Source: Heliorestis convoluta
GTDB lineage: Bacteria > Bacillota > Desulfitobacteriia > Heliobacteriales > Heliobacteriaceae
Direction: 5' to 3'
Length of the DNA stretch: 64,000 nt
Assembly (NCBI RefSeq): GCF_009649955.1
Contig: NZ_CP045875.1
Coordinates: 186,001 to 250,000, forward strand
Shown piece after piece: positions 1 to 33,797 of this stretch. Positions within the stretch are counted from its first letter, which is position 1, and each line of letters starts with the position of its first letter. Position numbers and translations under genes: made by a program. The notes under the pieces were generated by a model that did not search any database, was not told the DNA's origin, and saw only the letters and a program-made list of their open reading frames with translations.

Positions 1-539
1 TTCTTAACGGAAAGCCATGGCGTACAGATGAGCAAAGGGTAAAAAAGGCTGTAGAAACAATTCGCGGTTTTAATAATGATCCAGAGCCATATCTAAATGG
101 AGGGTGGCCTACTATTCCTCCTGAAGGAAAAAAGCAGCTAAATATGCATATTGGTCTTAGAGCTGTTGGAATTTGGACAAATAATAGTGCTAATGCGACT
201 TATATGGATACTTCTCCTGCTAGAGTAGGTTCAGGCCTCTTTTTCCCTTCTACAGCACTGCGCCTGTTAGATGCAGATGTAAGTTGGAATGCACAAATAG
301 GAGCTGTTGAAGTAAAAGCAAAAGGCAATGAATTTTTAATGGAGCCTGATAAAGTAGTCGCGTATGTAAACGGAAACCTGGTAAGTTTACCGAAGATGGT
401 CATTCAAGATGGAAGAGCTTTGTTACCTGTTGAAATGTTGGAGTATATTGGATTTAGCTATCATTGGATGCACTATATTGATGATGTAGGAAAGGCAAGT
501 AGACGTAATTATATTGAGCGAATTTCAATCGTCAATTAA
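1..539 (+). CDS. Stalk-domain (copper amine oxidase N-terminal-like) protein, 5' end cut off
   Basis: The reading frame is open from base 3 to the TAA at 537-539, so the gene starts before the window. The C-terminal 110 residues have the pattern of the copper amine oxidase N-terminal 'stalk' domain: VVAYVNGNLVSLPKMVIQDG followed by GRALLPVEMLEYIGF, the usual VxVNG...DGRxLVPxR layout. Such domains are found in secreted or cell-surface proteins of Clostridia. No signal peptide can be judged because the N-terminus is missing. A strong terminator follows at once. The function of the whole protein is unknown. Confidence 0.75.
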   Translation, partial: LNGKPWRTDEQRVKKAVETIRGFNNDPEPYLNGGWPTIPPEGKKQLNMHIGLRAVGIWTNNSANATYMDTSPARVGSGLFFPSTALRLLDADVSWNAQIGAVEVKAKGNEFLMEPDKVVAYVNGNLVSLPKMVIQDGRALLPVEMLEYIGFSYHWMHYIDDVGKASRRNYIERISIVN

Positions 540-546
540 CAAGATT

Positions 547-582
547 AAACCCCTCGATCTTAGCAAGGTCGAGGGGTTTTTG
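547..582 (+). terminator. Rho-independent terminator
   Basis: A 15-bp stem (AAACCCCTCGATCTT, 547-561, with AAGGTCGAGGGGTTT, 565-579; one G-T pair) has a 3-nt loop and is followed by Ts. It ends the transcript of the stalk-domain gene. Confidence 0.9.
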
Positions 583-602
583 ATTTTAAATGAAAGCTTC
601 AA

Positions 603-678
603 AAGGAGGTGTTTGCCTTGATTGAACGCTAAGAATTTTTAGAAAGAGGTGATGAAAAGAACAGGAAAGAAGAGGTGA
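603..678 (+). other. Tandem ribosome-binding sites with two mini-ORFs
   Basis: Three good ribosome-binding sites follow each other before the giant gene: AAGGAGGTG at 603, AAAGAGGTGA near 643 and AAGAGGTGA at 670. The first serves a possible 4-codon ORF (TTG 618, stop 630-632). The second serves an 8-codon ORF, MKRTGKKR (652-678), whose stop lies inside the third site, which serves the TTG at 685. This could be translational coupling or a leader-peptide arrangement, or remains of lost genes. Confidence 0.35.
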
Positions 679-684
679 CTTTAT

Positions 685-3600
685 TTGAACTATCTTACTC
701 AAAAAAACAAAAGAATATCGATGCTGTTATTATTTACTTTTATCTTTACCACGATTATATCGTGGTTACCACCATCAGTTGCAGAGGCGGCTTTTCCTTC
801 ATCATGGAAATATTCCAAACCTATAAACAAAGGTGGTTATTTCGTTTCAGATAACAATGGTTTGATCGTTACCGTACCCACGAATGGATTCCCAAGAGAT
901 CCAGATATACATACAAGCTCCATTCAGATACCGGCAGGTAGATATGAAGTGTTTTGGGTTGACGGTGTACGAGTCGGAACTCAATCTTATCAGAACTCTG
1001 CAAGCTCACCATCTGTCTTAAATTTAAATCAAGTTGGAAGCCTCAAAGATGGCGGTTATCTCATTGTACCTTTCTCAGAACTCGATACGTGGGTGAATCG
1101 ATTCAAAGGTAATAGAGATTTTGTTCGACATCATGCAGAGCAACATTCTATTACCATAAATGGTTTACGAGTCATCAATCTATCATTAGTAGCTGCTCTA
1201 TGTGGAGCCATAGGAATTGACTCTGGTTACGACTGGACAAGTCCTTGGGGTAGATTTTCTATCACAAATCCACCTTCAGGTGGACTTAGAATTCTTAAAG
1301 GTAGCGCAACTATGAAGCCTGGAGAGGAGCTTGTCATCGGATTTGACGCACAAGCAAACAACGGGGGAGTAAAAAAAGGTTTTTACAACTTGAAGGTGAG
1401 CGCTAGTGCAAACTCATCAACAATGAATACCCTTAAAGAGGGTTGGTTTACAACGAGGATAAGTGATCAGACAGGTAATATTGGTGCTACTTTTACGCAA
1501 CCTGGAACCTACTGGGTTACGCTCTATGTAAAAGACGGTGTTGGAAGAAACTCTGCTGGAACTTCATCAGAGAATTGGATTAACTGGGGAAGTTGGCCTT
1601 GGCATAGAGTTGATGCTTATATTGCGGCTACGTTGAAAGTAACTGTAACAAATACTACTTTACCACCAAAAGCACCAGAGCCAGCACCGCCACCAGCGCC
1701 AAGACCTCCGGAACCAACAAAGCCAAGGCCGGGAAGCCCTGTAGCTATAGCCACTGTAAACGGAGGTAAGGAAGCAGAAATTTTCGTTGGCGATACCGTT
1801 AGGTTACGAGATGCTTCCTATCACCCTTTTGAACCAGATGCATGGATTCGTGAACGCATGTGGATGTCAAAAACGAATCGTCAAGTTATATTTCGTACAT
1901 GGAATGAACAAAATGCTCGATACACACCATTAAACATCACCTATGGCCCTAATAGTTACTATGACTCCGACATTCCCATGTACTTTGATGCTAAAAGCAT
2001 GTATTACTTTAATACACCGGGTGTTCATGTTTTGGCATTGTCTGTAACAGGAAGCAATCCTATGTTTGCTGAAGATACTGTTCAAGTTATCGTCAAGGAA
2101 AGACCCAATATGGCTCCTATTGCAAAAATCAGTGCAAATCCAACAAGAGCAGTAGAAGGAAAAACGATAACGGTCAGCAACAACAGCAGACATCCTGGAG
2201 AGCCATTTGAAAAAATCACAGAATATAAGTGGGATATCTCTGGGAGAGCACCAATTATTCAGACAACAAAACAAAACCTTTCCTTTGGACCAGGGTTACC
2301 GTTAGGAATGTTGCCAGTAGGAACTCACACGATTAGCTTAACTGTAAAGGATCAAGATGGCGATATCTCAACGGATGTAACGACGGTTACGGTTTTAGAA
2401 GCGAAGCCAGTGGCGGCCATTAGAGCAAGCGCATCTTCAATCGATGAGTTTGAAAATGTTACGGTATTCAACGAAAGCTATCACCTAGGAGATCCCTTAA
2501 AGCAGATCGTTGAATATAGGTGGGAAGTACCGGGGCACGAACCTATCGTGCAAAATACAAAACAAAATTTGGTATTCAGTGTGGACTCGCCACTAGGGAC
2601 GTTAGCCTCGGGTATCAACACGATCAAGCTTACGGTAAAAGATAATGTTGGTGATATTTCAACAGCAAGTACTAACATTGCCGTTAAGATGTTAGAACCG
2701 GTGGCTGATATAGCAGCAAGTAACTATTCGATCACAGAAGTTGATGATGTAACAATAATCAACAATAGCTATCATTCAGCGGCACCTAACCTAAGTATTA
2801 CAGAATATAGATGGACAGTTCCATGGCTAGATGAACCGATTATCCAGACAACAAAGCAAAATATAGAATTTGGTGATAAGAAGCCCTTAGGACCAATACC
2901 TTCCGGCTCACAAACGATTACCTTAACAGTCAAAGATGATGAGGGTCGGATCTCGAGTGATAGTGTCACTATAGAGGTCGCTCCTGTTTATCCAACGGGT
3001 GAAATCAATATTACAGGTCATGATGGAGAGGTGATTGATAGAGCACTTGCAGGTAGACAGGTAATTATTGAAGGGACTGGTCGTGCCTACGGTGGTCGAA
3101 ACATTAATAGCTCAAAGACACAGTGGCGTATTACTCATATTGATACTGAGAGCGGAAAAGAAACAGTTACAGAAATCAGTGGCACGATGGCACCAATCAA
3201 CGATAGTTGGGACAATCCCTTCTTTAACAAAGACGGTGAATGGAAAATTGAGCTCAGACTGACTGATGATGCTCTAAGTCCGAGAAGTTCACAATGGATC
3301 AGTAAAAAAATCTGGATTATACAGGATAAGCCACCCATTCCTTTGTTTTCTGTTATACCAGAAGCACTTCGTAATATTATCGATGATTTTACGATTGAAG
3401 CTACCCACGGCAGTTATGTTCATCCCGTAGACATGACACTTGGCGATAGGTTGACAGGTATCACATGGAAGCTATTATTTGATGAGAATAATGACGGTAC
3501 CTATACGAAAGGCCCTGTAGCGGAGCTTCACATGAATTTAGAAACAGGGGAAGTTACAACAACAGAAGATAAGCGTTATGGAAGCATTAGACCTGTTTAC

Positions 3601-6600
3601 AAAGACGAAGGAGAGCTTGATTCAAGAAAAGTTCGGCTTCAATTTAATCAAGTTGGTAGGTTTAAGCTAGAGCTTGAGGCACATGAATCCTATGAAGGTT
3701 GGGGGAGAACCATACGAGGTCAGACCGGACATACTTTTCAAAAAGCTATCGAAGAAAAGGTTATTGAAGTGGATAATATTCCACCCTATGCGAATATCGA
3801 TTTTAGCAAAGGTGATGTTGATTATTACCTTCCCTTTGTATTCAGTTTAGTTGATAACAGAGATCCTATAGTCGGATCGTTTAACGCGAACCAGTTTATG
3901 TTGATCAACGAAGGTAAAAGCAAAGGAATAAATCCAATTACTTCATTTACCGAGTATGCGCCTGACGAAGCAAAACAAGTAGACTCTGCTGTGGATTACA
4001 TTATGAATAACTGGATTAACTATCCTAACAGTCTAGGTCAATGGCAGGTACATACGGCTGGTTCTGTTCCCTCTATTCGTTCAACCGTAAACACGCAGTG
4101 GACTGGTTTTTGGAGAGAAGATGATATTAACCGAACTGAAATTGAATTTGAGATGGGTGTTTCGCAGAATGATGGTGATGATGACTGGATCGGTTTTTCT
4201 TTTAGAATGAATAAATACGAACCAGGTCATCCCAATAATCCTTACAGTGGAAATATAGATGCGTATGACATGTACTTCTTTGCCATGGACAATCGCGGTA
4301 TTCGCCATGCAGGACTTTATAAGCTAGAAAAAGCACCTTTTACAAATGATCATGCTGGCAGCCATAGTATGTGGACAGGTCGTTGGGCCGGTGGAGTTTG
4401 GACGAACGAGATATCTTACTTCACTCAAATTGGCTCGAATACGCCTAGACAAGAGAATAGCTTTTTACCCGGAAGTCCTGTTCCTGCAAATACCAAAGGA
4501 AGACTTCTCGCTTTACAAAAAACAAGTACAGATAACCTTCGTTGGAGATATCACGACTTTTATGGTGTAAAAATAGTTGCGGAAGGTAATCGAATTCAAA
4601 TATGGGTAAATGGTAAGCTAGAGATCGATTACACGGATCATGATAAACCTATCGTAACTGGAGGTTATGGTCCTTTCGCAGCTAGCCAAGCTTACGGTAC
4701 TTTCAGAAACATTAACATCAATGGAGCAAGCATTTTTGATGGTATCAGCTATGATGAGTTGCATGACTTGGTAGCGATACAATCATTTGATAAGCCGGCG
4801 GATATTAACAAGCGTTATCTCGCAGTTGTCATAGATGCAAGACTTCGTGAAGGTAACGTTACAATGCTTGAACTTATTGAATTGCTACGGGCTAAAGAAG
4901 TTACCCCCATCATCATTGCTCCTCCTAATGTTCAAGAGCAATTCATGCCACTACTTAATGAACTAGATGGTTTCGCAGTAGACTTGAACACAAACATGAG
5001 AATCCCAATGCTTGAAATAGCAAGACGTATTTTTGGTCAAACCGAAGATGGTACACCTAAAAATGTTATTCTCGTAAACCAACGTATTATAGCTCAAGCA
5101 GAAGAGTTTGATGCAGAAAAAGATACGATTACAAACGAAGGTAAGCGCTGGAAGTTTACGCATACAAAACCTTCGCTGGAATACCTCTGGATGGATACGC
5201 CTTGGGATACGATGAACTATTTCAACGCAAATAAATGGCATGAATCAGGCAATGAATTGCTGCCAACTAGTACATCTGTAACAAAACCACATTCAACTTG
5301 GGAGGGTTCCTTTAACAAGCCAGGACTATACGAAATCAGCTATCGAATTAAGGACCAACCTTCTAATACTCTTCAGCATCCTAACAATTTAAGCCATAGT
5401 CAAAATAGCAATCTAAACAAAGAATTCGATGAAGGTGGATATGCGAAGTGGTCTAACTCAGTGGCTGACTATCTCTTGGTAATAAGACCACCTCAAGCAG
5501 ACTTTACGGTTACAACAACAACACATGGACAACCCATATGGGTAAAAGAAGATTCAGTTGCGCCAGATCGAATGAAAAAAGACGATCCTAATAAGGGAAT
5601 CGTCCAGAGAGAATGGAGAATTAAGAAGTTAACAGATGATAGCTGGCGTTATGATTATATCCCCGACAGTTTACCGGAACCAGGCGAATGGATCTTTGCT
5701 TTAAGAGTTATGAACGAGTTTGGCTATTGGTCTCCGTGGACAGAGAAAATTGTACCTGTAAGCAATACGCCTCCAATCGCAAAGTTTTCGCCTAGTAAAG
5801 ATCCAGTAACAAGAGGTTTAGCGATTGACTTGATAGATCAAAGTTATGATCCTAACCATGATAAGGTTGTAAAATGGCAGTGGACGATAGAGCATCCCAG
5901 CGGAACTATAACGAATGTACCCGTCATTACGAGTCCTATAACAAATGGTCATCTGTCAAATCGAATCTTTAACGAAAATGGTATTTACAGGGTACGGCTA
6001 AAAGTCTGGGATGAATTTGGAACAGAATCGTTATGGTACAGTCGAAGCTTTCCCGTAGTTCAACCAACGCCTCCACCAGTTGCTGACTTCGATATTGTCA
6101 CATCAATAGGCGTACCAAACACTGAATTCATCATGCAACAGTACAGTACAAGAGATAAATCATATGCTTTCCATAATCCTGGCGATCCGACGAACCTGAT
6201 CGAAAGATGGTTGTGGGAGCTAGAAGATCCTAACGGAAATAAAATTATGAATTGGCAGATCAACAGAAGCGAGCTGACAGGGACAACACTATCAATTCCA
6301 GATTTTCAACGAAGAATGTACAGCATAGGTCCAAACCCTAACTGGCCTAAACCGCAGAAGGTGGGCATGTACAGACTTCGCTTGCAAGTCATGGACACTT
6401 GGGGGCAAATATCGAATGTAGCTGTTAAGCAGTTACAAGTCATCGCACCTTTGAACTTCGTGAAGGAACCTGTTGCCAATCCTCAACCTGCCTTAGCAGG
6501 TGAGCGAGTGAAAATATCATTAGAAAGCGAAGGGTACGCCACGCATGCGTGGGTTCTTATACCTGCTTCTATCGTAGTTGAAGAAGAGAAAATGTTGCCA

Positions 6601-6927
6601 CCTAACAAGGGAAGGGAACCAAGCCCAACGCCAACTGAAACAATTAATGGAGTAGGATATGTAGCCATTCCGTTGACGAAAAGAACCACCTTGTCTCATG
6701 AGTATCCCAGTGTAAATGGTATTCCTTTTATGAGGAAGTGGGAAGGAGAATTTATCGTCAATGTCTGGACCAAAGATGGTAAGTATCCAATCTACTATCG
6801 CATAGCAAGGCAAGAGCCACCAGGATTCGCGCCTGAAACAAAAATGACATCAGCAAGAGATTTTGAGGTTAAGTACAGTGTATATGACTTAGTGAAGCCA
6901 AGAAGAGTGGTCAATCCAAGAGAATAG
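685..6927 (+). CDS. Giant secreted multi-domain protein with PKD-type repeats and a lectin-like domain
   Basis: 2080 residues, TTG start behind AAGAGGTGA. The signal peptide is clear: basic start, hydrophobic stretch at about residues 13-28 and a probable AEA/A cleavage site. A proline-rich linker lies near residues 330-350. Three homologous PKD-type modules of about 97 residues follow (from about 473, 573 and 670), each with an EYxW and a LTVKDxxGxIS element. A concanavalin-like region rich in W and D lies near 1110-1350 (GDDDWIGFSFRMNK). Further PKD-like modules begin near 1603, 1696 and 1796. There is no LPxTG motif or C-terminal membrane segment, so anchoring is unclear. The gene lies just before a Tad pilus block and may encode an adhesin or matrix protein; that role is inferred. 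Confidence 0.85.
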   Translation: MNYLTQKNKRISMLLLFTFIFTTIISWLPPSVAEAAFPSSWKYSKPINKGGYFVSDNNGLIVTVPTNGFPRDPDIHTSSIQIPAGRYEVFWVDGVRVGTQSYQNSASSPSVLNLNQVGSLKDGGYLIVPFSELDTWVNRFKGNRDFVRHHAEQHSITINGLRVINLSLVAALCGAIGIDSGYDWTSPWGRFSITNPPSGGLRILKGSATMKPGEELVIGFDAQANNGGVKKGFYNLKVSASANSSTMNTLKEGWFTTRISDQTGNIGATFTQPGTYWVTLYVKDGVGRNSAGTSSENWINWGSWPWHRVDAYIAATLKVTVTNTTLPPKAPEPAPPPAPRPPEPTKPRPGSPVAIATVNGGKEAEIFVGDTVRLRDASYHPFEPDAWIRERMWMSKTNRQVIFRTWNEQNARYTPLNITYGPNSYYDSDIPMYFDAKSMYYFNTPGVHVLALSVTGSNPMFAEDTVQVIVKERPNMAPIAKISANPTRAVEGKTITVSNNSRHPGEPFEKITEYKWDISGRAPIIQTTKQNLSFGPGLPLGMLPVGTHTISLTVKDQDGDISTDVTTVTVLEAKPVAAIRASASSIDEFENVTVFNESYHLGDPLKQIVEYRWEVPGHEPIVQNTKQNLVFSVDSPLGTLASGINTIKLTVKDNVGDISTASTNIAVKMLEPVADIAASNYSITEVDDVTIINNSYHSAAPNLSITEYRWTVPWLDEPIIQTTKQNIEFGDKKPLGPIPSGSQTITLTVKDDEGRISSDSVTIEVAPVYPTGEINITGHDGEVIDRALAGRQVIIEGTGRAYGGRNINSSKTQWRITHIDTESGKETVTEISGTMAPINDSWDNPFFNKDGEWKIELRLTDDALSPRSSQWISKKIWIIQDKPPIPLFSVIPEALRNIIDDFTIEATHGSYVHPVDMTLGDRLTGITWKLLFDENNDGTYTKGPVAELHMNLETGEVTTTEDKRYGSIRPVYKDEGELDSRKVRLQFNQVGRFKLELEAHESYEGWGRTIRGQTGHTFQKAIEEKVIEVDNIPPYANIDFSKGDVDYYLPFVFSLVDNRDPIVGSFNANQFMLINEGKSKGINPITSFTEYAPDEAKQVDSAVDYIMNNWINYPNSLGQWQVHTAGSVPSIRSTVNTQWTGFWREDDINRTEIEFEMGVSQNDGDDDWIGFSFRMNKYEPGHPNNPYSGNIDAYDMYFFAMDNRGIRHAGLYKLEKAPFTNDHAGSHSMWTGRWAGGVWTNEISYFTQIGSNTPRQENSFLPGSPVPANTKGRLLALQKTSTDNLRWRYHDFYGVKIVAEGNRIQIWVNGKLEIDYTDHDKPIVTGGYGPFAASQAYGTFRNININGASIFDGISYDELHDLVAIQSFDKPADINKRYLAVVIDARLREGNVTMLELIELLRAKEVTPIIIAPPNVQEQFMPLLNELDGFAVDLNTNMRIPMLEIARRIFGQTEDGTPKNVILVNQRIIAQAEEFDAEKDTITNEGKRWKFTHTKPSLEYLWMDTPWDTMNYFNANKWHESGNELLPTSTSVTKPHSTWEGSFNKPGLYEISYRIKDQPSNTLQHPNNLSHSQNSNLNKEFDEGGYAKWSNSVADYLLVIRPPQADFTVTTTTHGQPIWVKEDSVAPDRMKKDDPNKGIVQREWRIKKLTDDSWRYDYIPDSLPEPGEWIFALRVMNEFGYWSPWTEKIVPVSNTPPIAKFSPSKDPVTRGLAIDLIDQSYDPNHDKVVKWQWTIEHPSGTITNVPVITSPITNGHLSNRIFNENGIYRVRLKVWDEFGTESLWYSRSFPVVQPTPPPVADFDIVTSIGVPNTEFIMQQYSTRDKSYAFHNPGDPTNLIERWLWELEDPNGNKIMNWQINRSELTGTTLSIPDFQRRMYSIGPNPNWPKPQKVGMYRLRLQVMDTWGQISNVAVKQLQVIAPLNFVKEPVANPQPALAGERVKISLESEGYATHAWVLIPASIVVEEEKMLPPNKGREPSPTPTETINGVGYVAIPLTKRTTLSHEYPSVNGIPFMRKWEGEFIVNVWTKDGKYPIYYRIARQEPPGFAPETKMTSARDFEVKYSVYDLVKPRRVVNPRE

Positions 6928-6935
6928 CTTACGTC

Positions 6936-6972
6936 GAAGCCCGAAGTCATTCAATGCCTTCGGGCTTCTTTT
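6936..6972 (+). terminator. Rho-independent terminator
   Basis: Stem GAAGCCCGAAG (6936-6946) with CTTCGGGCTTC (6958-6968), followed by TTTT. It separates the giant gene from the Tad block. Confidence 0.85.
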
Positions 6973-7010
6973 ATGTAGAAGCAAATTTTCACTAAAGGTA
7001 GGTGAGCAAG

Positions 7011-8360
7011 TTGAAAGTGCTTCTGGCAACGGGAGTCAAGCAAATAGATAATGTCGTTTCTCTTTTCACTGGCTTAGAGACGGTTTGGGTTGGCTATAGG
7101 GAGAGCGTAGTATTAATGGCTAAGAAAGAGAGCGTTAACCTCGTAATACTATCAGCGTTTTTGCCAGGTAGCGAAAAGATTGAGTGTATCATTACATCCC
7201 TTAGACTTGAAGAAATTCGAGTTATTTTACTGGCAGGATCGATTGCTTATGATGCTCCTTTAGTCACAGAGGCCATTCGGTGCGGTGTTTATGATGTCCT
7301 TTATAACCCAATAACACCAAGTAAACTTAAACAAGCAATCGAGTCTCCAGCTACCTATCGAGATGCTATGTTGCGGCTAGAGAAAGAAACAGACATTACC
7401 GTGAAAGATGGTGGTGATAGAGACAGAAATGACAATAGAAAAAAAGAAATATGCTTGAGCGATTTCCAAGAGCAGAGTAAAGCTTCTAGTAAGAAAAAAG
7501 AGATGAGTGAATCGCCCAGTGAAAAAGAAGAGGTCGATTCAGACAATTATGCTCTAAGAACATTAAAGGGTACTACTCTAGCAAAAGAAGTCATTGTTAT
7601 CACCAGTCCAAAAGGAGGTACAGGTAAAACGGTAATGGCTGTCAATCTAGCTGCTGTAATCTATAAGATTACAAAACAACGTGTAGCACTTATTGACTTA
7701 GATCTACCCTGGGGCAATGTAGCGGCTCAACTACAGCTTTCTTTTAATGAGGACTTTTTTCTTTTGGAGTCATTGCCAGAAGTAATCCGAGAAAATGTTC
7801 TTTTGGAATTAATGCAAAAACACTCAAGTGGAATATATGTTCTCGCTAATCTTACAACAGGATTATCAGATGAGCAGTTCATAGATTCTAACGGGATAAA
7901 GAAGATTCTTTTTAACCTACCAAGGTTTTTTGATTATGTAGTCGTTGATACCGGATCAAATTTGCAGATACATACAATAGAGGCTATTCGTTATGCTACG
8001 AAGATCATTTGTTTGAATGGCTTCGATACGGCCACTTTACACAATACTAGGAAATGGTTAACTCAATTAAAAGCGAGAGAGTTAATCGGTGACTTTAATG
8101 ATGTTGGGCAAGTCTTTAATCGAATTACAGGCAAGGAAGGGATTGATATTTCCGATGCCGAGGATTTCCTTCAGTCAAAAGCATATGGAGCAGTTCATTG
8201 GAAACCAGATATACAGAGGATAATCAACCAGGGCAAAATACCAGCTCTGGTTGATTCTTCTTTTGGCGATGAAATTGAAAGAATTGCTAGGAAGCTTTGC
8301 ACGCAAGTTGAGATGTCAAATGGTATCTTAGACAGACTGAAAAAGTTAGTGTCACGGTAG
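7011..8360 (+). CDS. TadZ/CpaE-like pilus assembly ATPase
   Basis: About 449 residues. The first 110 resemble a receiver-like domain (KVLLATGV at the start), a charged linker covers about 125-185, and a ParA/MinD-type ATPase follows with a deviant Walker A, SPKGGTGKT (lysines near 198 and 206), then DLDLPWG and a VVVDTG Walker B-like strand. This two-part layout is that of TadZ/CpaE, which place the Tad/Flp pilus machine at the membrane. The start at TTG 7011 has AGGTGA five bases upstream; a GTG at 7002 would sit inside that site. The next two genes encode pseudopilin-like proteins. TadA, TadB and TadC homologues are not in the window and may lie to the left. Confidence 0.8.
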   Translation: MKVLLATGVKQIDNVVSLFTGLETVWVGYRESVVLMAKKESVNLVILSAFLPGSEKIECIITSLRLEEIRVILLAGSIAYDAPLVTEAIRCGVYDVLYNPITPSKLKQAIESPATYRDAMLRLEKETDITVKDGGDRDRNDNRKKEICLSDFQEQSKASSKKKEMSESPSEKEEVDSDNYALRTLKGTTLAKEVIVITSPKGGTGKTVMAVNLAAVIYKITKQRVALIDLDLPWGNVAAQLQLSFNEDFFLLESLPEVIRENVLLELMQKHSSGIYVLANLTTGLSDEQFIDSNGIKKILFNLPRFFDYVVVDTGSNLQIHTIEAIRYATKIICLNGFDTATLHNTRKWLTQLKARELIGDFNDVGQVFNRITGKEGIDISDAEDFLQSKAYGAVHWKPDIQRIINQGKIPALVDSSFGDEIERIARKLCTQVEMSNGILDRLKKLVSR

Positions 8361-8369
8361 GGGGAAAAC

Positions 8370-8831
8370 ATGTTAAAAACCTTCTGGCGTAATGAACGTG
8401 GCGGTGGAGAAGCTCTATCTTTTGCAGCGATAGCTATCATTCTTGCTTTTTTCGTTTTGGCCATGGTAGAGCCTATTCATCTCAGCAGAACGAGCGACAA
8501 AATAAACGGCCTTGCTCGTTACGCTCTAGTTCTTGCTGAATCACAGGGAGAATTAAGCAGCCAAGCTTTACAGGACGTACGCTCTAGAGCAGTTCAATTA
8601 GGTCTTGAAGTAAGCGAATTAGAAATAGACTTTAGAGCTTTTCACGATGATGGAACGGAAAAACTTAAGGGCGAAAGGGCTGAATACGGGGAAAGGATCG
8701 GAGTTCAACTAAGTTACACAAAAAAGTATGACAGAGTAACACTAACAAATTTTGTTTTAGCTTCAGAGAGTAAGACTGCGAAAATTTCATCTCCAGCCAT
8801 GTACAGCGTGTCAACAAGTCATAAAAGATAG
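8370..8831 (+). CDS. Pseudopilin-like membrane protein (TadE/DUF4320 type)
   Basis: 153 residues, ATG start 9 bases after tadZ. A short basic N-terminus (FWRNERGGGEA) leads into one hydrophobic segment (about residues 18-33) and then a soluble domain. This N-terminal pattern, an RG-rich head followed by a single membrane helix, is typical of TadE/TadF-like minor pseudopilins, often annotated DUF4320 in Firmicutes. It probably forms part of the Tad pilus made with its neighbours. Family assignment rests on pattern and context only. Confidence 0.65.
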   Translation: MLKTFWRNERGGGEALSFAAIAIILAFFVLAMVEPIHLSRTSDKINGLARYALVLAESQGELSSQALQDVRSRAVQLGLEVSELEIDFRAFHDDGTEKLKGERAEYGERIGVQLSYTKKYDRVTLTNFVLASESKTAKISSPAMYSVSTSHKR

Positions 8832-8853
8832 TAAGAAAGGGGTGATGTTTTAT

Positions 8854-9399
8854 TTGTTTTTTAGAAAGTTTATCTATGATAACCGTGGAACAGGCACAGC
8901 GTTGACAGGTTTGATCATTGTAGTACTTTTGCTGATTGCATTCGTATCCATGGTAACGATGGCAGAGTATGTAACAAAGAGTAGAGTCATTTACAATGCC
9001 ATTGATCATGCTTTGATGGCAAGCTATGGCAGTGTAAATAGAATTGATTTAGCAGACAGAAATATTTTCATAGAAGAGGATATGAGAAATAGCTTGATGG
9101 CAGATGCTAGAGAGCAATTTGTAGAGGTATGGAAAAAAGAATCTAAAGCGATAAGATATCTAACACTTGACGAAGAGCTAGGCGTTTCTAGCTTTGATGT
9201 TTTTAACTATGATGAGGATGGGAGGCTTGATGAAACGGCTCCAGCTCCACATCTTCACCGAATTACGTCCCCTGCTGTCTACGTTCATGTTGAAGGCATG
9301 ATAAAAATGACTTTCTTGCCCAGTATTCCATTAAGCCTACATGTCTTAATAGATGTTCCTGATATTCCTGAGAGTGAACTGTACAGGTTTGTACGATAG
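8854..9399 (+). CDS. Pseudopilin-like membrane protein, second copy type
   Basis: About 181 residues. The near-ideal ribosome-binding site AAAGGGGTGAT (8836-8846) points to the TTG at 8854 rather than the GTG/ATG at 8842/8845 that lie inside the site. The N-terminus (RKFIYDNRGTGTALTG) has the same charged head plus single hydrophobic segment as the previous gene, followed by a helical, acidic soluble domain. It is probably another minor pilin or pilin-like subunit of the Tad system. The two proteins share architecture but little sequence. Confidence 0.6.
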   Translation: MFFRKFIYDNRGTGTALTGLIIVVLLLIAFVSMVTMAEYVTKSRVIYNAIDHALMASYGSVNRIDLADRNIFIEEDMRNSLMADAREQFVEVWKKESKAIRYLTLDEELGVSSFDVFNYDEDGRLDETAPAPHLHRITSPAVYVHVEGMIKMTFLPSIPLSLHVLIDVPDIPESELYRFVR

Positions 9400-9407
9400 C
9401 AAAGGAT

Positions 9408-10025
9408 GTGTTAGAGCTGCAAGTCAACCTACTAAGAAACCATGACAATCTTGTTGAATGTACATTAAATAATATCTACTGTCCAAATCGTTGGTTATTG
9501 TTTCGTAAGATACGAGATTGGGATACAGAGCTATTTTCTCATTCTCTTCGAGTTGCGGCATACTCAAGATTTTTAGTCCAAGAACTTTTTAATGAGGATG
9601 AAGAAACCGAATCGATCGTGACAGCAGGAGCTTTTTTTCATGATATTGGAAAAACAACCTGGCCCAATAAATTTTCTCACAAAGAACTAACAGAGAGAGA
9701 TCGTGAAATAGTGAGGTGTCATCCGACTACTGGAACTTATATAGTAGAAGAACTTTGGCCAAATGTCCCAATAGAGATTCTGACAATTATTCAAGAGCAT
9801 CATGAACGACCCAATGGACAAGGCTATCCTACGGGTAAAAAGGTGACAAACCCACTATCTCTCATTGTTAGCGCAGCTGACATATTCGCTGCTTTGACAG
9901 AGCCAAGGCGGTATCGCAAAGTTGTTTATAATGCCGAGGCAGCGGCTCAAGAGCTAGTTCGGCAAGGTTACTCAACGAAAGTAGCAGAAGTTTTAGAAAA
10001 AGAATATGAGAGTATGATCGTTTAG
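9408..10025 (+). CDS. HD-GYP domain protein
   Basis: 205 residues. It shows the HD-GYP signature in order: HSLRVA (near residue 45), HDIGK (near 79), and EHHERPNGQGYP (near 130), then the SAADIFAAL helix. HD-GYP proteins hydrolyse cyclic di-GMP or related dinucleotides, and link here to pilus or surface behaviour would be natural. No sensor or membrane domain is present. The start is uncertain: GTG 9408 overlaps a good AAAGGA site and a downstream non-ATG codon may be used. It follows the pseudopilin gene by 8 bases and is likely co-transcribed. Confidence 0.8.
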   Translation: MLELQVNLLRNHDNLVECTLNNIYCPNRWLLFRKIRDWDTELFSHSLRVAAYSRFLVQELFNEDEETESIVTAGAFFHDIGKTTWPNKFSHKELTERDREIVRCHPTTGTYIVEELWPNVPIEILTIIQEHHERPNGQGYPTGKKVTNPLSLIVSAADIFAALTEPRRYRKVVYNAEAAAQELVRQGYSTKVAEVLEKEYESMIV

Positions 10026-10036
10026 AAGAAACACGC

Positions 10037-10076
10037 AAAAAAGACAGTTCTCCATGGTAGGAGTACCGTCTTTTTT
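10037..10076 (+). terminator. Rho-independent terminator
   Basis: An AAAAAAGAC...GTCTTTTTT outer stem (10037-10045 and 10068-10076) holds an inner CTCC/GGAG pairing. It closes the Tad/HD-GYP transcript. Confidence 0.85.
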
Positions 10077-10110
10077 GCTTAGAAGAGCTAAATCAGAGGA
10101 GGAAAGATTT

Positions 10111-10266
10111 ATGAAGCCTAGTATTGTAGTTGCGCCTCCTGAAGAAACCCAAGTAAACAAGATTTTCATGGAAAAAACATATGAGTTGTTGGCTCGTTGG
10201 GCTATGGAAGATTTAAAACAACAAGCAGAAAATCATGCGAAAGTGCTTGAGAAAAAAGCAGGATAA
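10111..10266 (+). CDS. Small hypothetical protein (51 aa)
   Basis: The ATG at 10111 has a clear ribosome-binding site, GAGGAGG, at 10096-10102. The product is a 51-residue, mostly helical charged protein with the core YELLARWAMED. A shorter ORF just downstream (10335) carries the related core YQLLLKWAIED. No known family is recognised. It lies between the HD-GYP gene and the serine recombinase. Confidence 0.55.
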   Translation: MKPSIVVAPPEETQVNKIFMEKTYELLARWAMEDLKQQAENHAKVLEKKAG

Positions 10267-10334
10267 GAGAAATAGGACAAAGCTCTCTCTGCATAACAAT
10301 AAACCACAACCCTTTATAATGGCGGTGGTTCATT

Positions 10335-10436
10335 GTGAAAAGGAAAAAAGAATGGATAAAATACCATATATACCAATTACTTCTAAAATGGGCTATTGAA
10401 GATAAAAATGCAAATGATAAGCGGCGGTCAGGGTGA
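10335..10436 (+). CDS. Possible 33-aa ORF related to the preceding small protein
   Basis: A GTG-started ORF of 33 codons begins VKRKKEWIKYH and contains YQLLLKWAIED, matching YELLARWAMED of the 51-residue protein upstream. It has no convincing ribosome-binding site and its stop lies inside the next terminator. It may be a decayed copy or a very small gene. The hairpin AACCAC/GTGGTT (10302-10330) precedes it. Confidence 0.25.
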   Translation: MKRKKEWIKYHIYQLLLKWAIEDKNANDKRRSG

Positions 10437-10460
10437 GGAACCCCGACCGCCTTTTTTTTT
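10423..10460 (+). terminator. Rho-independent terminator
   Basis: Stem GGCGGTC (10423-10429) with GACCGCC (10445-10451), an inner AGGG/CCCC pairing and a run of nine Ts. It isolates the recombinase gene from transcription coming from the left. Confidence 0.85.
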
Positions 10461-10509
10461 GAAGGACATATTTAATATTGCCGTTATGGAAATAAAGGGG
10501 ATGTGTCAA

Positions 10510-12153
10510 TTGGATAAACAAAAGTTTGAATTAGTTGATCCAAAACGTAATTACAAAAACATAGAGGAAATGCCACATTCCAAAGACACCTTAAATCAAA
10601 AAGGTATCGCTATTGGAGGTTATGTTCGTGTTTCTACGCAAAAAGAAGGTCAAAAGTCTAGTGTAGAGAATCAACAGAAGTACTTAACAGAATGGGCAGA
10701 TGTTCATGGTTATCGATTGTTAAAAATGTATATTGATACAAAAAGTGGAGAATACATCAGCTATCGAAACGAACTACAGGAAATGATACAAGATATCCGA
10801 GCAGGAAAGATCCGAGGTATTGTAACTAAAGAAATAGCTCGCTCTTCTCGGGATGTAATGGACATTTTAGAGCTTAAGCGAACTTTATCCGATTATGGTG
10901 GCTTTATGATTAGCATACGTGAAAACTACGATAGCCGAACCGATGACGATGAATTTTTGCTGGTTATTCATGCGGCTATGGCACAAAAAGAACGAAAAAC
11001 TACAAGTTCTCGAATTAAAGTAACGCAAATATTAAAAGCTAAGGAAGGTAAAGGAAATATTAAGCCACCTTTTGGCTATAGATACAGCGAAACAGAAAAA
11101 GGAAAGTACGAGCCAGATCCAGTTACAGGACCAATCTATAAAGAAATAATATCTCAGTTTCTTTCCGGTCAAGGAAGAGACAAAATAGCTCGTTGGTTAA
11201 ACAGTAAAGGAATAAAAACTTCAAGGGGCGGTATTTGGAGAGAGAGTGCTATAAAAGTCTTATTAGAAAATCCTGCATACCTAGGATTTATGGTTTATAA
11301 TACAACGACTCTGCTTCGAACTGCTACGGGTCAAAGAAAACGTGTTCGTCGCCCTATGGAAGAGTGGGTAATAGTAGAAGATGCACACCCTGCTTTAATT
11401 ACTCAAGAGGAATGGGATAAAGTACACGAGATTATGCTTTCAAGACGAAAAATAGATAATCGACGTCGAATCAGTTTTGAGCGAAAATACCTTCTAAGTA
11501 CTCTGTTGCGGTGTGGAATTTGTAAAGGAAATATGTATGGCGTAGAAAACAGGTCAAAGCACAAGAGAAAAAGTAAAAACGGAGAAGAAGTTACTTACTA
11601 CTATTATCGATATGTCTGCCAAGGCCGTAATGGTCGGTGCGATGCCAAAGTAAAAGTCTATGAAATGGAGCGTGTGGATAAAGAAGTTTTCAAACAAATC
11701 AAAGCAAAGGTTATTATGTTAACGAATCCTAGTGAAGTAGTTCAATACGTTCAGTCTAGAAAGGATATCTTCACCGATGGATTAGAGAAAGAGCGTCGCA
11801 AAAGAGAAGAACTACAAGTTCGAATTAATAAAAATGAAAAAGCTATAAAACGTCAGCAAGAAGCTTACGAAGCCGAGGTAATTGAATTAGAAGAATATCG
11901 AATTAGAGTGACCGAGTTGCGTAAGGAAAAAGATGATTTGTTGTTGACGTTAGATACATTAAATAGAAAATTAGCAGAAGTAGACTCAGCCCACGAAACA
12001 ATACTAAAACTAGCCGAACTAATGGTTGCTTATGTATCTACACTGGACGATTTGAGTCAAGAGAGAAAGCATGAACTTCTTCGTCTGATGGTGCAAGAAG
12101 TCTACCTTTATCCTGATTATAAGATAGAAATTAAGTGGTCTTTTGAGCCGTAA
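10510..12153 (+). CDS. Large serine recombinase (integrase)
   Basis: About 547 residues, TTG start behind AAAGGGG (10494-10500); longer in-frame starts exist but would read through the terminator. Domains in order: resolvase catalytic domain with the serine in YVRVSTQ (near residue 42) and the KEIARSSRD and AAMAQKERK elements; the recombinase domain (IKPPFGYRY onward, including LLENPAYLG); a zinc-ribbon with CGIC and later cysteines; and a coiled coil near 420-500. This is the full layout of large serine integrases. The gene ends 16 bp before the truncated cotJC on the other strand, as expected for an integrase next to its own attachment site. Confidence 0.93.
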   Translation: MDKQKFELVDPKRNYKNIEEMPHSKDTLNQKGIAIGGYVRVSTQKEGQKSSVENQQKYLTEWADVHGYRLLKMYIDTKSGEYISYRNELQEMIQDIRAGKIRGIVTKEIARSSRDVMDILELKRTLSDYGGFMISIRENYDSRTDDDEFLLVIHAAMAQKERKTTSSRIKVTQILKAKEGKGNIKPPFGYRYSETEKGKYEPDPVTGPIYKEIISQFLSGQGRDKIARWLNSKGIKTSRGGIWRESAIKVLLENPAYLGFMVYNTTTLLRTATGQRKRVRRPMEEWVIVEDAHPALITQEEWDKVHEIMLSRRKIDNRRRISFERKYLLSTLLRCGICKGNMYGVENRSKHKRKSKNGEEVTYYYYRYVCQGRNGRCDAKVKVYEMERVDKEVFKQIKAKVIMLTNPSEVVQYVQSRKDIFTDGLEKERRKREELQVRINKNEKAIKRQQEAYEAEVIELEEYRIRVTELRKEKDDLLLTLDTLNRKLAEVDSAHETILKLAELMVAYVSTLDDLSQERKHELLRLMVQEVYLYPDYKIEIKWSFEP

Positions 12154-12169
12154 TTTTTTTTGGAGGTAC

Positions 12170-12274
12170 TTAACAGTCAGGTCCGCCATACTGCGCATAG
12201 AGATACTTCGCCATACCAAGGTCACACTTTTCCACCCGCACAGGATACTGCAACTTCTTCTCGTAAATCCACAT
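12170..12274 (-). pseudogene. cotJC: cotJC, 5' fragment interrupted after codon 33
   Basis: On the minus strand an ATG at 12274 opens a frame reading MWIYEKKLQYPVRVEKCD and on to QYGGPDC before a stop. This is the conserved N-terminus of CotJC, a manganese-catalase-like spore coat protein of about 190 residues, and homologues continue after QYGG-D with GELAA. Homology ends at GGPD; the next codon and the TAA come from the recombinase-bearing DNA. The fragment lies in its proper place after cotJA and cotJB, with a GGGAGGG site upstream. The missing 3' part is not found on the minus strand in this window, so it is either beyond the left edge or lost. Confidence 0.85.
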
Positions 12275-12303
12275 AGGCCAATACTTCCCTCCCGGTCATC
12301 CAA

Positions 12304-12585
12304 TCAATACTTTATCTCCCAGGGCCAAGGCGTTTCAATCCAGTTCCAGGGATAGCGCTCTGGGCAGTAGCCATAAATCGTCAAAAGGCCATACTTCTGC
12401 TCATAGGCCAGCTTTAACCGCTTTACTTCCTCAGAAACCCGAGCAAAATCACGTAAAGCCGCTTGCTCTTCAGGATGAGTATCTAAAAAAAGATTTAGCT
12501 CCAGAAGGACAAAATCAAGCTCCATAATGCGCTTTAATAGATCTCTCTGGTGGTGGTGATGGTGGTGGTGGTGATGTTGACTCAT
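12304..12585 (-). CDS. cotJB: Spore coat peptide assembly protein CotJB
   Basis: 93 residues, ATG with GGAGG ten bases upstream. The core LDFVLLELNLFLDTHPEEQA, followed by LKLAYEQKYG, is the CotJB signature; a WxWIETPWPWE tail is also typical. CotJB belongs to the mother-cell-expressed cotJ coat operon. Unusual is a run of nine histidines directly after MSQ. The gene reads into cotJC after about 30 bases. Confidence 0.92.
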   Translation of the reverse strand: MSQHHHHHHHHHQRDLLKRIMELDFVLLELNLFLDTHPEEQAALRDFARVSEEVKRLKLAYEQKYGLLTIYGYCPERYPWNWIETPWPWEIKY

Positions 12586-12603: not shown

Positions 12604-12834
12604 CTAACACTTTTTTCGATGTTTATCTTTAATGTAAGGACGATAAAGGTCAGGAAAAAGCGTTCCTTTTTTCAACGCCTCTGTCGGAGAATAGAAGGGC
12701 GGACAATACTTCTGCCACAACACATAAGCTTCTGCCAACTTTGGAGAATCAGGCAACACATCGGGTCTATGCCTATGTGGTGGCGCACAGACAGGTGGCT
12801 TTGGAGCACAAACGGGCGGTTTGCATCGATCCAT
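12604..12834 (-). CDS. cotJA: Spore coat associated protein CotJA
   Basis: About 76 residues. The ATG at 12834 has an ideal AAGGAGGTG nine bases upstream, better than the GTG inside that site. The middle part (SPKLAEAYVLWQKYCPPFYS then LFPDLYRPY) is the CotJA family core. The N-terminus has a duplicated KPPVCAP motif and the C-terminus ends KKC, so it is cysteine-rich. First gene of the cotJ operon, with cotJB following after about 18 bases. Confidence 0.9.
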   Translation of the reverse strand: MDRCKPPVCAPKPPVCAPPHRHRPDVLPDSPKLAEAYVLWQKYCPPFYSPTEALKKGTLFPDLYRPYIKDKHRKKC

Positions 12835-33300: not shown

Positions 33301-33339
33301 TTTTCATCGTTGGTTGTGCCCAACCAGGCATGACTGGTT
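33301..33339. repeat. 39-bp direct repeat, left copy
   Basis: TTTTCATCGTTGGTTGTGCC begins a 39-bp stretch that recurs at 33759-33797 with about four substitutions. The small hairpin at its centre is kept in both copies (TGCC/GGCA here, TGCCC/GGGCA there). Confidence 0.75.
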
Positions 33340-33362
33340 AGTCCGAAAATAGCTACTGTGGT

Positions 33363-33477
33363 GGGTCAGGCGTTATGATTTCCTTCCGAACGGACTCATC
33401 CCACGCCATGAGCGGCAGCAAGCTGCCGATGGCTGAGGTCTGAAGTCCTCTCTCCAGGAAGTCATAACGCCTGACCC
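33363..33477. repeat. 115-bp palindromic element, copy 1
   Basis: The ends GGGTCAGGCGTTATGA and TCATAACGCCTGACCC pair over about 22 bp (one mismatch further in). The interior holds GGCAGC/GCTGCC and GGACT/AGTCC pairings. Copy 2 at 33604-33719 is its reverse complement with many changes that keep the pairing. Any ORF here is an artefact of the repeat. Confidence 0.85.
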
Positions 33478-33603
33478 AGGTACATTTTGCTGGTTGTGAC
33501 TGAGTTTTGGCCTATTGCATTGCAAATACAATAGGTAGTTGCGTATAGAAGATAGTTTCGCCAAGCTATGTCAACGGGAGTAACAATCAGCAAAAAACGC
33601 TCT

Positions 33604-33719
33604 GGGCCAGGGCATCACGCTTTCCGCAGCGGGACTTGGGACCTCAGCGCATCAGTAGCTTGCTGGCGGTAACAGCGTGGGACCAGTCCAGAGCGGAGGA
33701 AAGCGTGATGCCCTGGCCC
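33604..33719. repeat. 116-bp palindromic element, copy 2 (inverted)
   Basis: GGGCCAGGGCATCACGC and GCGTGATGCCCTGGCCC pair without mismatch, 22 bp in total with the adjoining TTTCC/GGAAA. The interior (GGACTTGGGACCTCAGC... AGCTTGCTGG...GCGTGGGACCAGTCC) aligns with the reverse complement of copy 1. Between the copies is a smaller hairpin, CCTATTG/CAATAGG, near 33513-33537. Confidence 0.85.
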
Positions 33720-33758
33720 TCTGCAAGAAGTAACCCCAACGTGATCAGAAAAACTTGA

Positions 33759-33797
33759 TTTTCATCGTTGGTTGTGCCCGACCGGGCATGACGAGTT
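33759..33797. repeat. 39-bp direct repeat, right copy
   Basis: Second copy of the repeat at 33301-33339, in the same orientation, so the two palindromic elements lie between direct repeats 458 bases apart. It ends about 25 bases before the aminotransferase stop codon. Confidence 0.75.

Follow-up and report, generated by a model that had tools for sequence, protein, structure and literature searches.

An ICE-like element with a serine integrase splits the coat gene cotJC in Heliorestis convoluta and probably leaves it at sporulation

Bacillus subtilis excises skin from sigK when making spores. Both there and in C. difficile, skin lies inside a mother-cell sporulation gene with a serine recombinase beside the 5' piece, a short core at both junctions and in-frame rejoining of the gene. 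Sporulation-gene intervening elements like these form an established class whose timing depends on a small directionality factor (PMC5595907, PMC4191935, PMC10747680), as SprA/SprB and the C. difficile skin RDF show (PMC4191935, PMC10747680). Other serine-recombinase elements in sporulation genes are SPbeta in spsM (PMC4191935) and vfbin in spoVFB, vrin in spoVR and yin in yabG (PMC10747680); they are prophages or prophage-like, each makes a single interruption, and none is in cotJC in the texts consulted. Closest in being without phage genes is gin in gerE of B. cereus ATCC10987, a non-phage, serine-recombinase element in a small sporulation gene; it is 28.6 kb long with three recombinases, and conjugation genes are not reported in the sections of the paper available (PMC5595907).

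The element in cotJC of Heliorestis convoluta resembles this class in lying inside a sporulation gene, in carrying its own recombinase and in having a common core with in-frame rebuilding. Unlike skin, it occupies a coat gene rather than a sigma factor gene and has conjugative rather than phage-like cargo, and we infer its excision; compared with gin, it is ICE-like, reconstructed at about 99 kb and recurrent in several genera. In the literature searched, we came across no previous description of cotJC as the target of a sporulation-gene intervening element, of such an element that is conjugative and not phage-like, or of two different serine-recombinase elements interrupting a single sporulation gene at points about 20 codons from each other.

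The stretch of DNA analysed (the window, 64,000 nucleotides) spans positions 186001-250000 of the H. convoluta genome, a single contig of 3,218,981 bp. The features that bear on the argument are as follows, in window coordinates unless marked as genome positions.

12607-12834, minus strand: cotJA (PF11007, 58.6 bits, 5.4e-16, passing the Pfam cut-off)
12307-12585, minus strand: cotJB (PF12652, 97.9 bits, 3.9e-28, passing the Pfam cut-off)
12170-12274 (genome 198170-198274), minus strand: cotJC 5' fragment, 34 codons plus stop, MWIYEKKLQYPVRVEKCDLGMAKYLYAQYGGPDC-stop
Genome 681477-681971, plus strand: cotJC 3' part, from the whole-genome search
12177-12193, minus strand: attL core CAGTATGGCGGACCTGA, 17 bp, common to attR at genome position about 681480
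12183-12184, minus strand: predicted crossover dinucleotide GG, placed by an A/T mismatch in H. acidaminivorans and by the arm palindrome centres in three lineages
12154-12176: element-side attL arm, TTTTTTTTGGAGGTACTTAACAG on the plus strand, with its inverted copy TTTTTGGAGGTACTCCC in attR
10486-12153, plus strand: large serine integrase (Pfam Resolvase 1.3e-30, Recombinase 4.4e-27, Zn_ribbon_recom 9e-8; PHROG integrase 8.8e-112)
10335-10436, plus strand: small protein b, 33 aa, GTG start, containing ...QLLLKWAIEDKN... with the same W-A-x-x-D motif as protein a
10111-10266, plus strand: small protein a, 51 aa, containing ...ELLARWAMEDLKQQ...
9408-10025: HD-domain protein of the element, followed by the small proteins and then the integrase
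8370-9399: Tad pilus small proteins, attL-side half of the element
7002-8360: TadZ-like ATPase, attL-side half
685-6927: PKD-type surface protein, attL-side half
1-12182: the part of the element within the window, belonging to the attL-side half, which runs left to genome position about 133.92 kb

The initial annotation had held that cotJC is split beside a serine recombinase, and the interruption is clear. The 5' fragment, which comes after intact cotJA and cotJB, ends at GGPD-C-stop, matches residues 1-35 of a CotJC-like query at 94% identity and covers residues 1-33 of the Mn_catalase profile; the convergent integrase gene stops 16 bp from the cotJC frame (stop codon 12151-12153). The 3' part had been expected on the minus strand, in the contig sequence that precedes the window. 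It does exist in the genome, but as assembled it lies on the plus strand, 483 kb to the right of the 5' piece. Searching the whole genome, we found cotJC solely as this one 5' piece and this one 3' piece, with no second intact copy, and the halves join in frame to give 190 codons, as many as the intact gene of H. modesticaldum has; the two findings that had been named in advance as telling against the earlier proposal, a second complete cotJC and halves unable to rejoin in frame, are thus both absent. The remaining Mn-catalase match of the three, located at 2.24 Mb, belongs to a distantly related protein of 180 aa and not to CotJC.

Read in the direction of cotJC, the 5' piece at attL is GCGCAGTATGGCGGACCTGACTGTTAAGTACCTCCAAAAA and the lead-in to the 3' piece at attR is TTTTTGGAGGTACTCCCCAGTATGGCGGACCTGATTCCGAGCTA. 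The two sites have the 17-bp core in common and their element arms are inverted, as expected for a serine integrase. The attL and attR sites of H. acidaminivorans carry different bases (T versus A) immediately after GGCGG, and the element arms of this species and of Heliobacterium are imperfect palindromes that have different sequences and the same central GG. Because three different arm pairs centre there, we infer that crossover takes place at the second GG of GGCGG, within the GGPD codons. The earlier proposal that the junction is an attachment site is therefore strongly supported, by the common core and the palindromic arms centred on GG and also by the in-frame rejoining in five species and the full co-occurrence of the integrase subfamily with split cotJC that are described below. 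A search of viral contigs for the excised attP gave no match.

The recombinase is complete, with Resolvase, Recombinase and zinc-ribbon domains. Although its reading frame is open from 10396, the presence of a terminator-like hairpin at about 10426-10461 makes 10486 or 10501 the probable start. Small W-A-x-x-D proteins are encoded just upstream of the integrase in all of the split genomes, and neither protein a nor protein b of H. convoluta has a family match; their position makes them candidates for the recombination directionality factor, and protein a could alternatively be a regulator. A phage origin of the integrase was considered and set aside, its phage relatives being distant (best identity 33% among the matches listed).

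The part of the element in the window is collinear with contig C40 of H. acidaminivorans as far as the att site. Beyond the window, the attL-side half encodes a VirB4-like protein (TraG P-loop), PrgI, SLT/M23 transglycosylases and RecD2, and the attR-side half encodes a VirD4-like protein (T4SS-DNA_transf), an actin-like partition protein and MoxR/VWA proteins, so that type IV secretion and coupling proteins of the ICE type are present. A relaxase search of the element returned a weak Replic_Relax match, 26.9 bits, just above the cut-off of 25.3, and no phage structural genes were found among about 20 H. convoluta element proteins, a subset of the element's genes, that were scanned against Pfam. 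Because the integrase is combined with VirB4-like, PrgI, VirD4-like and partition genes, the element is, on its gene content, ICE-like. It shares with ICEs that have serine integrases an integrase at one end, the VirB4-/VirD4-like and PrgI proteins, actin-like partition and restriction cargo; unlike the usual members of that group it sits in a developmental gene that is kept under selection.

We considered how widely this arrangement is distributed by comparing nine Heliobacteriaceae genomes, of which G000 is H. convoluta. The gene is intact in four (G003, G004, G005 and G008) and split in five (G000, G001, G002, G006 and G007), in every case at the same codons and by the same integrase subfamily. 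The probable identities are Heliobacterium chlorum and mobile for G002 and G006, Heliomicrobium undosum for G007 and H. modesticaldum for G005. Scores above 1000 bits for the integrase subfamily are confined to the five split genomes, each of which has a single copy, located at cotJC; among the 83 class genomes searched it was found nowhere else, the next best score being 236 bits. The rejoined CotJC has exactly 190 aa, with neither stops nor frameshifts, in H. convoluta, H. acidaminivorans, G002, G006 and G007. In the last three, cotJC has a further interruption about 20 codons downstream (KAKG|LLTD), made by a second element whose own recombinase reaches full score solely in those genomes. 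Sizes differ widely: the H. acidaminivorans element in cotJC is at least 109 kb long, and the two in G007 are small, about 3.7 and 4.9 kb. On this comparison cotJC is a site that serine-recombinase elements occupy recurrently in Heliobacteriaceae, in some genomes two at a time. The family amounts to a natural experiment, with integrase and split cotJC in 5/9 genomes and neither in 4/9. It also illustrates that annotation can miss an interruption, CotJC having been counted as encoded in all heliobacteria compared in the Heliophilum genome paper (PMC9147875).

The ends of the second element fall on separate contigs in the two Heliobacterium genomes (G002, C43:1-33.8 kb and C108:1-17.7 kb; G006, C82:207.7 kb onward and C63:1-13.5 kb). 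The long internal stretches there make it either far larger than the 4.9 kb of G007 or rearranged.

We consider it likely, with appreciable room for doubt, that an ICE-like element resides in cotJC and is excised to rejoin the gene in the sporulating mother cell. Its serine integrase would have inserted the element, of roughly 99 kb, at the second GG of the GGPD codons, converting attB into the attL seen in the window and the attR that precedes the 3' part of cotJC. Acting with a directionality factor on attL and attR, the integrase would release the element as a circle and leave cotJC exactly in frame again. Excision would take place in the mother cell at sporulation, where loss of the element would be costless since that cell dies, and the forespore would retain the element. 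The report that H. convoluta sporulates only sporadically (PMC7143216) counts against this explanation.

The strongest alternative, which we nonetheless regard as unlikely, is an ordinary ICE for which cotJC is a chance attB, so that the gene is inactivated and dispensable and the element leaves rarely, for transfer, outside sporulation. Conjugation-type genes are indeed aboard, and the element is evidently mobile, its body being 96-99% identical in two Heliorestis species despite much greater divergence of their host genes; this near-identity suggests conjugative transfer. An inactivated gene, however, is difficult to reconcile with rejoining free of any frameshift or stop in 5/5 split genes, or with the strong purifying selection on the interrupted gene in G002 and G006. 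These two genomes have both elements in common and collinear, and synonymous divergence between them is similar for the element-1 recombinase (dS 0.44), the element-2 recombinase (0.37) and cotJC (0.28). Because the elements are collinear and their divergence is host-like, both insertions very probably predate the split between these species. Their cotJC genes differ by 30 synonymous and 1 nonsynonymous codon changes; since this ratio has been kept despite both elements being present in each, the simplest account is that the rejoined cotJC is made and used. A species pair whose doubly cut cotJC is under measurable selection makes the choice between a tolerated passenger and a domesticated switch testable.

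The Heliorestis pair is a weaker basis for the same argument, because the element body has recently been shared. Its cotJC genes differ by 69 synonymous and 6 nonsynonymous changes. In the genes measured, dS of the element body is 0.02-0.08, as against 0.70 in the last third of the integrase and 1.05 in cotJC. The element body was thus shared recently, so that part of the selection on Heliorestis cotJC may predate the insertion; the cotJC-side end may be older. The element is a mosaic in this respect, window positions 11500-12176 (the C-terminal third of the integrase and the att arms) being far more diverged between the two species.

The deposited assembly, one circular chromosome, places attL and attR 483 kb from each other in inverted orientation; therefore, with the sites as assembled, the integrase would invert the intervening DNA and not excise it. 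Taken at face value, this layout implies that cotJC is restored by inverting 483 kb of chromosome with no excision at all, and recombination between the 5' piece at 198 kb (minus strand) and the 3' piece at 681 kb (plus strand) would also restore the frame. We judge this very improbable, the inverted layout being probably an assembly artefact, on the following observations. There is a break at codon 13 of hsdR, a type I restriction gene, which leaves MVFEKEIDFEQAL at 133.9 kb beside hsdS and the remainder, IEALSQKGWEPKV..., at 646.56 kb. Of these two halves, the former is fused to a 16S gene start at 133.92 kb and the latter comes after a tRNA terminator. The far side of the block, at the third junction, ends in a many-copy repeat of about 450 bp, and the genes that flank the block are neighbours in H. 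acidaminivorans. In that species the attR-side half runs on, in the same contig, into sequence that matches the attL-side half, and different restriction genes fill the slot held by hsd. The same H. convoluta assembly fuses 16S straight into 23S at 3.4 kb and begins inside a 23S gene, and it is a short-read assembly, produced by Velvet from the output of 454 GS20 and Illumina GAIIx sequencing (PMC7143216). No inverted repeats able to drive inversion were found at the breakpoints. Joined at hsdR, the halves would probably form one contiguous element of 64.3 + 34.9 = about 99 kb with direct att sites, as excision requires. A programmed, site-specific inversion of the 483 kb in the mother cell at sporulation, in place of excision, is the least probable of the readings.

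The large-scale order of the deposited H. convoluta genome is not to be trusted, and GC skew and strand bias, examined as a check on the inversion, are too irregular along it to favour either layout. Scraps of rRNA genes are joined directly to other sequence, with no N, at genome positions 1-401, 3427-4544 and 133601-133924. The repeat of about 450 bp has internal inverted parts and occurs at window positions 33301-33790, at genome positions 686466-686956 and 709386-709835, and in many other places.

The hsd slot holds a type I restriction system in H. convoluta (genome 133.9-137.9 and 646.6-649.7 kb) and other restriction-like genes in H. acidaminivorans (C37, 110.7-118.1 kb), and resembles a hotspot for defence cargo. 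An abiF RNA match above the gathering score lies inside the attR-side half, at genome positions 658967-659003 on the minus strand.
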